DNA of 64,000 bases from Betaproteobacteria bacterium. GTDB taxonomy: Bacteria > Pseudomonadota > Gammaproteobacteria > Burkholderiales > Thiobacillaceae. The notes under the pieces were generated by a model that saw only the letters and a program-made list of their open reading frames with translations, did no database searches and was not told the origin of the DNA. A program made the translations under genes and the position numbers. The stretch spans positions 1 through 64,000 of the forward strand of contig VGVT01000004.1 in assembly GCA_016873935.1 (NCBI GenBank), given 5' to 3'. Below, in pieces: positions 1-9,221 of the stretch; within the stretch, counting starts at the first letter, position 1; each line of letters begins with the position of its first letter.

Positions 1-650
1 GGGTGGACGACGAGAAGATGTCGAAGAGCCTGGGCAACTTCTTCACCATCCGGGAAATCCTGGAGAAGTTCGACGCCGAGGTGGTGCGCTTCTTCATCCT
101 GCGCGCCCATTACCGCAGCCCGCTGAACTACTCCGACCAGCACCTGGCGGACGCCAAGGCGGCGTTGACCCGGCTTTACACCGCGCTGCGCGGGTTGGAT
201 GTGCCCCAGGCAACGGTCGACTGGAACGAGACCCATGCGGTTCGTTTCAAGGCGGCCATGGATGATGACTTCAATACGCCGGAGGCTTTGGCGGTGTTGT
301 TTGACCTGGCAGGCGAGGTCAATAAGAGCCGGAATACGACTCAGGCTGGGCTACTCAAGACATTGGCCGGTGTGCTGGGGCTGTTGCAGCGCGATCCCAC
401 ATCTTTTTTTCAGGGCCGACAGGCAACGATTGTTTCGCCAGCCGCTCCAGGACACATTGTGATTCAAGGCTATGCCGCCACAGGAACAAAGGGCCTCTCT
501 GATGAGCACATTGAGGAACTGATCAACGAGCGTCTCGCTGCGCGCAAGAACAAGGACTTCAAGCGTTCCGATGCCATCCGAGACGAGCTCAAGGCGGCGG
601 GCATCGTGCTGGAGGACTCGCCCCAGGGCACCCTCTGGCGGCGGGGCTAG
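1..650 (+). CDS. cysS: Cysteinyl-tRNA synthetase, C-terminal part (5' end outside window)
   Basis: The enzyme charges tRNA-Cys with cysteine in the cytoplasm. The visible 215 or so residues begin just before the class I signature KMSKS ([13 protein letters not shown]), which binds ATP in the catalytic core. A helical DALR-type anticodon-binding region and the usual C-terminal tail ending GTLWRRG follow. The frame is open at the window start, so the gene is cut there; the full family protein is about 460 residues. It ends at a TAG facing a strong hairpin shared with the convergent gene. Identification is secure from the KMSKS context and the tail. Confidence 0.95.
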
Positions 651-679
651 CGGGGCCTCGCGAAAATCTTGAGACGAAA

Positions 680-706
680 AAAACGGCTGCCGATGGCAGC
701 CGTTTT
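680..706. terminator. Bidirectional rho-independent terminator
   Basis: A perfect 12-bp inverted repeat (680-691 and 695-706) with a 3-base GAT loop. It has an A-run on the left arm and a T-run on the right, so it can end transcription from both sides. It lies between cysS and the convergent repeat-protein gene. Confidence 0.85.
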
Positions 707-723
707 CGTTGCGCGTCCCGGTA

Positions 724-1542
724 TTACTTGGCGGGAGCGGCGGGGGCAGCGGCCGGAGCGGGCATGCCGGGGATCTGGAACATCTGGGTCCAGGCATTCG
801 GGTCGAACGGGTTGAACATCGGAGCGGCGCCGGCAGGAGCGGCGGGCAGGGCCGGCATGGTCAGCGCGGGCATGGCCGGGATGGTCGGCATGGTCAGCGC
901 GGGCATGCTGTAGGTGGCGGGATTCATGAAGCCCTTCCACATGTCACCGTAGGAACCCGGGTTCATGGAAGCGCCCAGCCAGCCCATGTACAGGTTGGGG
1001 TTCGCCGGGGCCATCATGAGTTGCATGGCGCGCGGATCCAGGGGAGACATCGCCCACTTCACGTACACGTTGGGGTTCAGGGTGTTCATGAACATCTGCA
1101 TGACCTTGGGATCCATCGGCGACATCATCCAGCGCATCAGCTTGCCCGGGTCGGACATCTGGGTCAGCACGGCGGTGTAGAAGTTGGGGTCCATACCGGC
1201 GGCCAGCCACTTCATGTACACGTTCGGGTCGGCGAAGGCGGCCACGTTGGTGTAGGCGCCGGGCTGGGTCATGGAGTTCATCATGTTCAGCCAGTTGGCG
1301 GGATCTTGCATGTGCAGGCCCATGGTGGTGTAGAAGCCGGGTTCGGTCACGGCGTTCAGCCAGGGCACGAACACCTTGGGATCCTTGTAGGCGGACATGT
1401 TCTGGGTCATGTCGGTCATGCGCGCCAGCCAGGCTTCGGGAGTCTGGGGAACCTGCTTGGCGGCAGGCGCGGCGGCGGTCTGGGCGAAGGCAATGGGGGC
1501 GGCGCTGACCAGCAGGGCGGCAACGAGGAATTTCACTTTCAT
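724..1542 (-). CDS. Exported methionine-rich protein with 13-residue tandem repeats
   Basis: Function unknown. The chosen ATG has a good ribosome-binding site (AAGGAGAT, complement of 1547-1554). It gives 272 residues starting with a Sec signal peptide (MKVKFLVAALLVSAAPIAFA). The mature part carries about 13 consecutive units of 12-13 residues. Each unit starts with D/N/E/Q-Pro and has an aromatic or Met residue at about position 5 and Trp or Met-rich hydrophobics after it (for example DPNVYMKWLAAGM, NPNVYVKWAMSPL). A Met/Pro/Ala tail follows (MPALTMPTIPAMPALTMPAL). About 33 Met and no Cys occur in the mature chain. The periodicity suggests a short helical solenoid or an amphipathic surface-binding protein; that is inference. 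I recognise no named domain. Confidence 0.8.
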   Translation of the reverse strand: MKVKFLVAALLVSAAPIAFAQTAAAPAAKQVPQTPEAWLARMTDMTQNMSAYKDPKVFVPWLNAVTEPGFYTTMGLHMQDPANWLNMMNSMTQPGAYTNVAAFADPNVYMKWLAAGMDPNFYTAVLTQMSDPGKLMRWMMSPMDPKVMQMFMNTLNPNVYVKWAMSPLDPRAMQLMMAPANPNLYMGWLGASMNPGSYGDMWKGFMNPATYSMPALTMPTIPAMPALTMPALPAAPAGAAPMFNPFDPNAWTQMFQIPGMPAPAAAPAAPAK

Positions 1543-1745
1543 TACGATCTCCTTCAAAGGTTGGCTCGGAACAGGGGGGGTATGGAGGGCACTGCTTGGT
1601 GGTGAATAGAATATCAAAATATCCTAATTTATATAGTGCCTGGCATAAGCCACCCTTATGGAGATGAAGTGATGTTGCAAATTCGCCAAGTGCTGACGCA
1701 ACTTCGTCAGCGGCCCGGACAGGCTGATATGCAGAGCGGGGCAGC

Positions 1746-2189
1746 ATGAGCGCGAGCATCCGCATTGGCGCGGTGGACTGGCGCCATCCAGCATGGACGG
1801 GCGCCTTCTATCCCGACGACATGCCGGAGGAATGGCGGCTTTCCTATTATTCGGGCCAGTACAACTGCGTGTTTCTGGCGGCGAGCGACTGGCGCGCGGT
1901 CGGTTCCGACGGGTTGCGGCAATGGTGTGACGAGGCGCACGCACGCTTCGTGTTTCTGCTGGAGGAGGATGCCGGCACGCTCTCCGACGGCGGCCTGGAC
2001 GGCAAGATCCGGCTGCTGTCGCGCGGAGATGCGCGCCTCATCTGGTTCGATGCGCACAGCGATCTGAAACACCTGGCGGAAGCAATCTGCGTGTGCGTCG
2101 AGCACGGGGAATTGTTTCTGATCAGCCGTGATGCCGATCTTGCGCAAATGGATCGAGTCAACACCCTGCTGGAACTCATGGGCTACTGA
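1746..2189 (+). CDS. Small DUF72-like protein, function unknown
   Basis: A 147-residue cytoplasmic protein. Its start (IRIGAVDWRHPAWTGAFYP followed by a DMPEEWRLSYYS segment) resembles the N-terminal strand and first helix of DUF72 (YecE-like) TIM-barrel proteins. It is about half the usual DUF72 length and ends at MDRVNTLLELMGY, so the rest of the barrel is missing. Similar short proteins seem to exist in other Betaproteobacteria, so it may be a stable subfamily and not a fragment. The 200-bp AT-rich gap upstream, shared with the divergent repeat protein, probably holds both promoters, but I could not fix either one. Confidence 0.65.
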   Translation: MSASIRIGAVDWRHPAWTGAFYPDDMPEEWRLSYYSGQYNCVFLAASDWRAVGSDGLRQWCDEAHARFVFLLEEDAGTLSDGGLDGKIRLLSRGDARLIWFDAHSDLKHLAEAICVCVEHGELFLISRDADLAQMDRVNTLLELMGY

Positions 2190-2262
2190 TACGGCCCCCC
2201 TCGCAGTCCTCGGCTGAGCCACGCGGGCCGGAAGCACGCGATCCGGTGTGCATTTCGGGGGG

Positions 2263-2271
2263 TGTTAGAAT
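2263..2271 (+). promoter_or_regulatory. Extended -10 promoter upstream of mlaF
   Basis: TGTTAGAAT matches an extended -10 element (TGn plus TAGAAT). No convincing -35 is seen. If real, transcription starts near 2278, which rules out the ATG at 2270 as the mlaF start and favours the GTG at 2315. Confidence 0.45.
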
Positions 2272-2314
2272 GCCGCCGCCAACAAGAACCAAAGCCGCTT
2301 CAGAACGTCATTCC

Positions 2315-3115
2315 GTGTCGGACAACCTCATCGAAATTTGCGACCTTTCCTTTGCCTACAGCGATCGCATGGTGCTCAAGGGCATCAATCTGAGCGCCAG
2401 GCGGGGGCAGGTCATCGCCATCATGGGCAACTCGGGCTGCGGCAAGACCACGCTGTTGCGGCTCATCGGCGGCGCCATGCGCCCGACGCAGGGCCTGTTG
2501 CGGGTGGATGGCGTCGACATGGGCGAGGTCGACCAGCGCGGTCTCTACCGGCTGCGCCGGCGCATGGGCATGCTGTTCCAGTTTGGCGCCCTGTTCACCG
2601 ACATGTCCGTTCTGGACAACGTGGCCTTCCAGTTGCGCGAGCACACCGACCTGCCCGAGGAGATGATCCGCGATCTGGCGCTGATGAAGCTGAACGCGGT
2701 GGGCTTGCGCGGCGCCCAGGATCTCATGCCCTCCGAGTTGTCGGGCGGCATGGCGCGGCGCGTCGCCCTGGCCCGATCCATCGCTCTGGATCCGGCCCTC
2801 ATCCTCTATGACGAACCATTCGCCGGCCTCGATCCGATCTCCCTGGGGGTGACCGGCAATCTGATCCGCCGCCTGACCGATACCCTGGGCATGACTTCCA
2901 TTGTCGTCACCCACGACGTGCACGAATCGCTGAAGATGGTCGATTACATCTACTTCGTCTCGGAGGGCGTCATCGTCGCCCAGGGCACGCCGGAGGAAAT
3001 CAAGGCCTCCGAGCTCCCCTATGTGCACCAGTTCGTGCACGGCGAGGAGGATGGTCCAGTTCCGTTTCACTATCCGGCGCCGTCCTACGCCGCCGATCTG
3101 GAGTTGTCCGCATGA
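2315..3115 (+). CDS. mlaF: Phospholipid-transport ABC ATPase MlaF
   Basis: ATPase of the inner-membrane MlaFEDB complex, which moves phospholipids between the inner membrane and the periplasmic carrier MlaC to keep outer-membrane lipid asymmetry. The sequence has a Walker A motif (GNSGCGKTT, about residue 38), the signature LSGGM, the Walker B segment ILYDEPFAGLDP, and the MlaF-typical GALFTDMSV and PSELSGGMARR stretches. The GTG start gives 266 residues, close to the E. coli length; an in-frame ATG at 2270 would add 15 residues but lies inside the likely -10 element. The stop overlaps the mlaE ATG by 4 bases. Confidence 0.95.
   Translation: MSDNLIEICDLSFAYSDRMVLKGINLSARRGQVIAIMGNSGCGKTTLLRLIGGAMRPTQGLLRVDGVDMGEVDQRGLYRLRRRMGMLFQFGALFTDMSVLDNVAFQLREHTDLPEEMIRDLALMKLNAVGLRGAQDLMPSELSGGMARRVALARSIALDPALILYDEPFAGLDPISLGVTGNLIRRLTDTLGMTSIVVTHDVHESLKMVDYIYFVSEGVIVAQGTPEEIKASELPYVHQFVHGEEDGPVPFHYPAPSYAADLELSA

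Positions 3116-7079: not shown

Positions 7080-9221
<2,142 letters not shown>

Follow-up and report, generated by a model that had tools for sequence, protein, structure and literature searches.

A family of methionine-rich repeat proteins and its genomic linkage to sulfur-oxidation genes

The locus and the encoded protein

The window analysed in this study is a 64,000-nucleotide stretch (contig VGVT01000004.1, positions 1 to 64,000) of a genome assigned to the Thiobacillaceae, which is 2.70 Mb in size, consists of 121 contigs, and is 98% complete. Near the beginning of the window, the minus strand carries a gene at positions 724–1542 (start codon ATG at 1542, stop codon at 724–726) that encodes a protein of 272 amino acids, here termed METREP, a name also used for the family to which it belongs. 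The gene is flanked by cysS and the mla operon, without a sulfur gene beside it, and this placement of the window-type copy is kept in another genus (locus L074). Its dN/dS values relative to orthologs range from 0.17 to 0.34, which indicates that the gene is under purifying selection.

A strong hairpin with T-runs, assigned to neither strand, separates cysS from METREP, two convergent genes, at positions 671–713 (-27.5 kcal/mol, z -5.1) and probably serves both as a two-way terminator. On the upstream side, an AT-rich element (AATTAGGATATTTTGATATTCT; positions 1590–1642, minus strand) is kept upstream of several window-type orthologs in other species and is a probable promoter or regulator site. 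A scan of positions 1–3000 of the window against Rfam yielded no match. Positions 1746–2186 contain a short ORF of 147 amino acids with a sub-threshold match to the first 50 of the 217 DUF72 profile positions, and it may represent a DUF72 gene that has been truncated.

The N-terminus of the protein (residues 1–20, MKVKFLVAALLVSAAPIAFA; positions 1483–1542, minus strand) looks like a Sec signal peptide with a putative cleavage site before Q; A20 is invariant in all 64 family members that were aligned. An irregular first segment (residues 35–53, PEAWLARMTDMTQNMSAYK; positions 1384–1440, minus strand), delimited by the structural model and the repeat analysis, is followed by twelve units of 12 or 13 residues (residues 54–206; positions 925–1383, minus strand), each corresponding to about one predicted short helix. 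These units begin with DP at residues 54, 80, 105, 118, 131, 144, and 169, with NP at 156, 181, and 194, with EP at 67, and with QP at 93. The remaining Pro/Ala/Met tail (residues 207–272; positions 727–924, minus strand) is mostly disordered in the prediction (pLDDT 47–72 over most of its length), apart from one short helix, FDPNAWTQMF. The mature protein (252 amino acids) contains 33 Met (13.1%), 15 Leu, and no Cys residues, and its GRAVY value is -0.09, i.e. it is not very hydrophobic.

The periodicity of the window protein is far beyond chance. Twelve Pro–Pro pairs occur at a lag of 12 or 13 residues (2.9 +/- 1.6 in shuffled sequences) and 26 identities at a lag of 25 (10.6 +/- 3.1 in shuffled sequences), and none of 20,000 shuffles matched the protein in either measure. 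Most invariant columns of the 64-member alignment correspond to the Pro and the Trp/Tyr residues of the units. A preliminary description had placed the gene at 724–1542 and noted a 12–13-residue period starting with D/N/E/Q-Pro, about 33 Met, no Cys, and a Met/Pro/Ala tail; the shuffle analysis and the translation agree with it on all of these points, and its estimate of about thirteen repeats was close, as twelve clean units and one degenerate unit are present.

Family, predicted structure, and paralogs

No match to the window protein was obtained in Pfam, NCBIfam, PADLOC, or PDB sequences, and the single PHROGs match (E 0.026, function unknown) was taken as chance. A profile built from the 64 members likewise found nothing in PDB. 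The earlier view that no named repeat family has this unit thus holds for Pfam, NCBIfam, PHROGs, PADLOC, and PDB, none of which gave a usable match. Pfam scanning of all 64 members gave weak matches only, with one or two members per family: STI1-HOP_DP (PF17830) was matched by 2 of the 64 (best value 5.5e-4) and not by the window protein. In a remote relative (G956), the PF17830 match scored 18 bits, below the gathering cut-off of 29.1, and a match to UBQLN1 (1.6e-3) was also below the gathering score. Matches of METREP relatives to GerD, JmjN, and RPAP3_C were judged to be compositional. Full-text literature searches found no paper describing the methionine-rich repeat, a Met-rich sulfur protein, or the METREP family. 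METREP is a family without an earlier description, and its existence is near certain.

When the 64-row alignment was supplied to AlphaFold2, the window protein was modelled as a succession of about 13 short helices, one for each unit and starting at the unit prolines, with pLDDT values of about 90–97 across residues 31–200 and mostly above 90 in the twelve units. A model of a remote relative (G299) reached a pLDDT of only 65 and served for the helix period only. Of the short helical solenoid proposed previously, the chain of helices with one helix per unit is therefore predicted, and the solenoid itself is plausible only. A Foldseek search with the model against PDB gave no significant match (best E 3.2) and no STI1 structure, and VIA-align assigned a Z of 2 or more to none of Foldseek's own candidates; this lack of a match does not prove a new fold. 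METREP is very probably a periplasmic helical-repeat protein.

Seven full-length METREP members are present in the genome containing the window, and the other six are 38–57% identical to the window copy. METREP is conserved in 52 of the 117 genomes of the taxonomic family, with 2–11 matches each, and is patchy in other Proteobacteria; named relatives were found in Thiobacillus, Hydrogenophilales, Tepidiphilus, Hydrogenophilus, and Gallionellaceae MAGs. The repeat unit is conserved across genera. In a maximum-likelihood tree, the paralog groups (window type, OmpA-fused, sox-linked, and others) recur across genera. The OmpA domain (PF00691) was detected in the C40 paralog of the same genome (E 1.3e-17) and, by Pfam, not in the window protein. 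The OmpA-fused members occupy two separate, well-supported positions in the tree, indicating that the fusion arose at least twice. An OmpA-like domain would locate the repeats within the periplasm, close to peptidoglycan.

Where the window protein has one of its 26 Met residues within residues 35–206, the other members carry Met in 57% of cases and Leu in 13%; where it has Leu in the same region, they carry Leu in 42% of cases and Met in 22%. The mean composition of the repeat region is 14.6% Met, 7.0% Leu, and 1.1% Ile, and Cys is found in the repeat region of 0 of the 64 members. We read this pattern as a sign that selection favours Met over the residues usually found in protein cores. The absence of Cys is not universal in METREP, since a remote subfamily from members of the class (e.g. 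L181, L183, and L191) does carry Cys. Met-poor, degenerate paralogs occur directly downstream of a Met-rich copy at L075:5196-5813, L084:6852-7493, and L105:5410-6030, near zapA and ygfA, perhaps as pairs with divided roles. Downstream of the C63 METREP gene, a 229-amino-acid protein of unknown kind (L088:4392-5078) contains one weak stretch resembling the repeat unit.

Sulfur metabolism of the host and genomic neighbours

The genome containing the window encodes DsrA, which scored well above the cut-off, with a second dsr-like gene alongside. No match to PF00174, the family that includes both SoxC and MsrP, was found in this 98%-complete genome, and the same search was positive in control genomes including Escherichia coli; the host is thus without SoxC and without an MsrP-type enzyme. 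It appears to lack SoxCD and to possess Dsr, a combination that commonly goes with a zero-valent sulfur intermediate.

Several METREP genes of the taxonomic family lie among sulfur genes. In the C76 paralog locus of the same genome, the order is soxZ, DUF302, METREP, cytochrome c, the flavoprotein of flavocytochrome c sulfide dehydrogenase (FCSD), multihaem cytochrome c, and molybdopterin enzyme. The corresponding orders are FCSD-METREP-SoxY-SoxZ-DUF302 in G113; FCSD-METREP-SoxY-SoxZ-cytochrome c-rhodanese-DUF302, followed by two ultra-methionine proteins, in G069; and, after soxYZ and intervening genes, rhodanese-DUF302-METREP-cytochrome c-FCSD-molybdopterin enzyme in G107. Crossing of coordinates showed that METREP directly adjoins DUF302 in G000, G012, G016, G017 (two cases), G031, and G107 (two cases), and further near pairs were found in G107, G113, and G069. 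The presence of DUF302 within sox operons has been remarked on before, without an explanation (PMC5037610, PMC5248467). In the tree, the sox-linked METREP copies that were included fall into a single clade, so that the linkage within the taxonomic family is best read as one old linkage that has been kept. Sulfur genes are absent from the neighbourhoods of most other paralog groups, which lie near zapA/ygfA, hppA, or ABC exporters. METREP is missing from 65 of the 117 genomes and DUF302 is present in 112 of them, which indicates that METREP is dispensable for sulfur oxidation in general.

Two further kinds of protein were observed around these loci. Ultra-methionine proteins with up to 27% Met and MMNPMMMAPMMG-type repeats are encoded in soxYZ/DUF302 clusters (L182:9098-10090, L199:9549-10115, and L199:10203-10859), and that of L182 contains one CxxCH haem motif. 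A second exported repeat type, with the 9-residue unit MNPATYMxW, is encoded by genes adjoining METREP genes (L182:7578-8210 and 8315-9001, L186:1625-2221, and L187:807-1436).

Outside the taxonomic family, profile searches identified METREP in 2 genomes of an order sample (n=399), in 7 of a class sample (n=369), and in 1 new genome of a phylum sample (n=398). The G299 and G438 proteins consist of near-perfect repeats with 22 and 30% Met, respectively; in both genomes DUF302 directly follows METREP and a Sulf_transp gene (identified in G438 by likeness to that of G299) is located upstream, separated from METREP in G438 by a thioredoxin-like gene. One METREP copy of G956 is preceded by DsrE, TusA, and two OmpP1/FadL-like genes and followed downstream by DUF302, and another has rhodanese and AprB nearby. 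In G517, METREP and further Met-rich repeat proteins are clustered with SoxY, SoxZ, DUF302, and Sulf_transp; a broader search around G517 yielded a single genome. No sulfur gene was found near the METREP copies of G547, G687, G826, and G596. Remote relatives in four other bacterial families also adjoin DUF302 and sulfur genes. Across five bacterial families, DUF302 is a steady neighbour of METREP (L081:7928-8506, L090:6226-6936, L189:7103-7747, L192:8096-8812, L193:7284-7967, L199:8690-9400, and L182:10172-11167).

SoxZ was present in 10 of 10 remote METREP carriers and in 30 of 70 controls (Fisher p 0.0005), and FCSD in 8 of 10 carriers and 17 of 70 controls (p 0.001), the carriers representing eight bacterial families and the controls being drawn from the same class sample and not matched by phylogeny. 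Because distant relatives adjoin genes for sulfide and thiosulfate oxidation, the METREP family probably helps to handle sulfur outside the cell membrane.

Proposed role and comparison with known systems

For the family, the link to sulfur genes is well supported, and a role tied to sulfur oxidation is probable. We propose that each 12/13-residue unit would form one short amphipathic helix capped by the Asp/Asn-Pro turn, and that the helices would stack in a row, so that their Met, Trp, and Tyr side chains could provide a hydrophobic, thiol-free surface. As a periplasmic accessory in the oxidation of sulfide, thiosulfate, and stored sulfur, METREP might use this surface to hold or coat the zero-valent sulfur or polysulfide that flavocytochrome c and SoxYZ generate; this role would resemble the one played by sulfur globule proteins, and the OmpA domain would tie some paralogs to peptidoglycan. 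Taken as a whole, the reading of METREP as an undescribed exported Met-rich helical-repeat family that assists sulfur oxidation by holding or coating zero-valent sulfur is tentative, at somewhat below an even chance, and the binding or coating step by itself is possible but a little less probable still. For the window copy, we infer a share in the sulfur role from its paralogs. Among the functions suggested previously, a binder of granule or membrane surfaces is the nearest to this reading.

The same helices could instead belong to a periplasmic holdase-type chaperone, in which a flexible, hydrophobic groove of Met-rich helices holds hydrophobic segments of other proteins, e.g. of cytochromes or outer-membrane proteins. 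Short, amphipathic, Met-rich helices started by DP or NP are also the recipe of STI1/DP, the Sgt2 C-domain, and the SRP54 M-domain; the two members and the G956 relative with STI1-HOP_DP matches, together with the UBQLN1 match, point in the same direction, and an envelope role would fit the location of the window copy beside the mla operon as well as the OmpA fusions. However, these matches are weak and may reflect composition, they do not include the window protein, and Foldseek recovered no STI1 structure. A holdase alone would also leave the linkage to soxYZ, FCSD, and DUF302 unexplained. We consider this function unlikely.

Alternatively, a rigid rod, sometimes anchored to peptidoglycan through OmpA, could space or organize periplasmic complexes such as SoxYZ and flavocytochrome c as an envelope scaffold that does not itself bind sulfur. 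The two independent OmpA fusions, the disordered Pro/Ala tail, and the retention of multiple paralogs at separate genomic positions over genera are consistent with such a scaffold, but it accounts neither for why Met is so strongly preferred to Leu and Ile nor for the ultra-methionine neighbours, and it is improbable, somewhat more so than the holdase.

Several features of METREP would also suit a sacrificial antioxidant: it is an exported protein with 13–30% Met, its core family lacks Cys, and Met is favoured over Leu. In this role, Met residues at the surface would be converted to the sulfoxide and then reduced back, shielding the periplasm as in the case of the methionine-rich peptide MRP, whose partner reductase is of the MsrP/YedY type. 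The oxidant sink suggested in the preliminary description is weakened by the finding that the 98%-complete host genome has no gene of the MsrP family (PF00174) in a search that was positive in controls; moreover, no Msr gene was seen at the METREP loci read, and the conserved Trp, Tyr, and Pro residues and the fixed unit length exceed the needs of a sink. A DMSO-reductase-type enzyme could still recycle oxidized Met (PMC7402097), and the antioxidant function ranks slightly below the scaffold in probability. Binding of Cu(I) or another soft metal by thioether ligands, also suggested earlier for this Met-rich, exported protein, gains no support from any METREP neighbourhood and is very improbable, as no copper genes were recognized at any locus read, no family match was obtained, and the Met residues are spread along the helices rather than clustered in MxxM/MxM motifs with His.

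The way in which cells hold and move insoluble zero-valent sulfur within the periplasm is poorly understood, and Sgp proteins have been described chiefly in purple sulfur bacteria. Through its linkage to soxYZ, flavocytochrome c, and DUF302, the METREP family provides named candidates in Thiobacillus-like chemolithotrophs, and it adds a helical-repeat unit missed by current domain libraries, with a Met/Asp-Pro recipe resembling that of the eukaryotic STI1 and SRP54-M client-binding domains. In its most far-reaching form, the holding or coating model would make METREP a new periplasmic class, i.e. a Met-lined helical rod whose thioether and aromatic side chains bind elemental sulfur or polysulfide and which acts, with DUF302 as a partner, as a carrier or coat between flavocytochrome c/SoxYZ and Dsr in betaproteobacterial and other sulfur oxidizers; this extended version is doubtful.

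METREP can be compared with several known systems. The Met-rich helical hand of Sgt2 binds hydrophobic clients and has been likened to STI1 and SRP54-M (PMC8010706). METREP is predicted to share with STI1/DP, the Sgt2 C-domain, and the SRP54 M-domain short, amphipathic, Met-rich helices broken by D/N-Pro, but these domains are cytosolic, contain about five helices, and are fused to TPR or other domains, whereas METREP is predicted to be exported and to have about 13–26 helices with a strict period. MRP of Azospira suillum, a periplasmic methionine-rich peptide, works with a periplasmic methionine sulfoxide reductase, as cited in PMC5358917; METREP is like it by description in being exported and Met-rich, and differs in that the partner enzyme family PF00174 is absent from the host genome. 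The DUF302 proteins of sox operons, often the direct neighbours of METREP, have an unrelated domain; they are not relatives of METREP but may be partners. The sulfur globule proteins of Allochromatium vinosum leave the cytoplasm by the Sec route and have repetitive sequences in which Pro recurs at regular intervals; SgpA–C are small and extremely hydrophobic, and SgpD, which is reported to be almost confined to Chromatiaceae, has long helices and P-x2-P patterns (PMC10386293). Like SgpA–D, METREP is repetitive, has regularly spaced Pro, is Sec-exported as judged from its signal sequence, and occurs in several copies per genome, and its hosts appear to be bacteria with zero-valent sulfur intermediates. 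Unlike SgpA–C, it is larger and, with a GRAVY value near zero, does not share their hydrophobicity, and its regular one-helix unit of 12 or 13 residues sets it apart from SgpA–D as these have been described.
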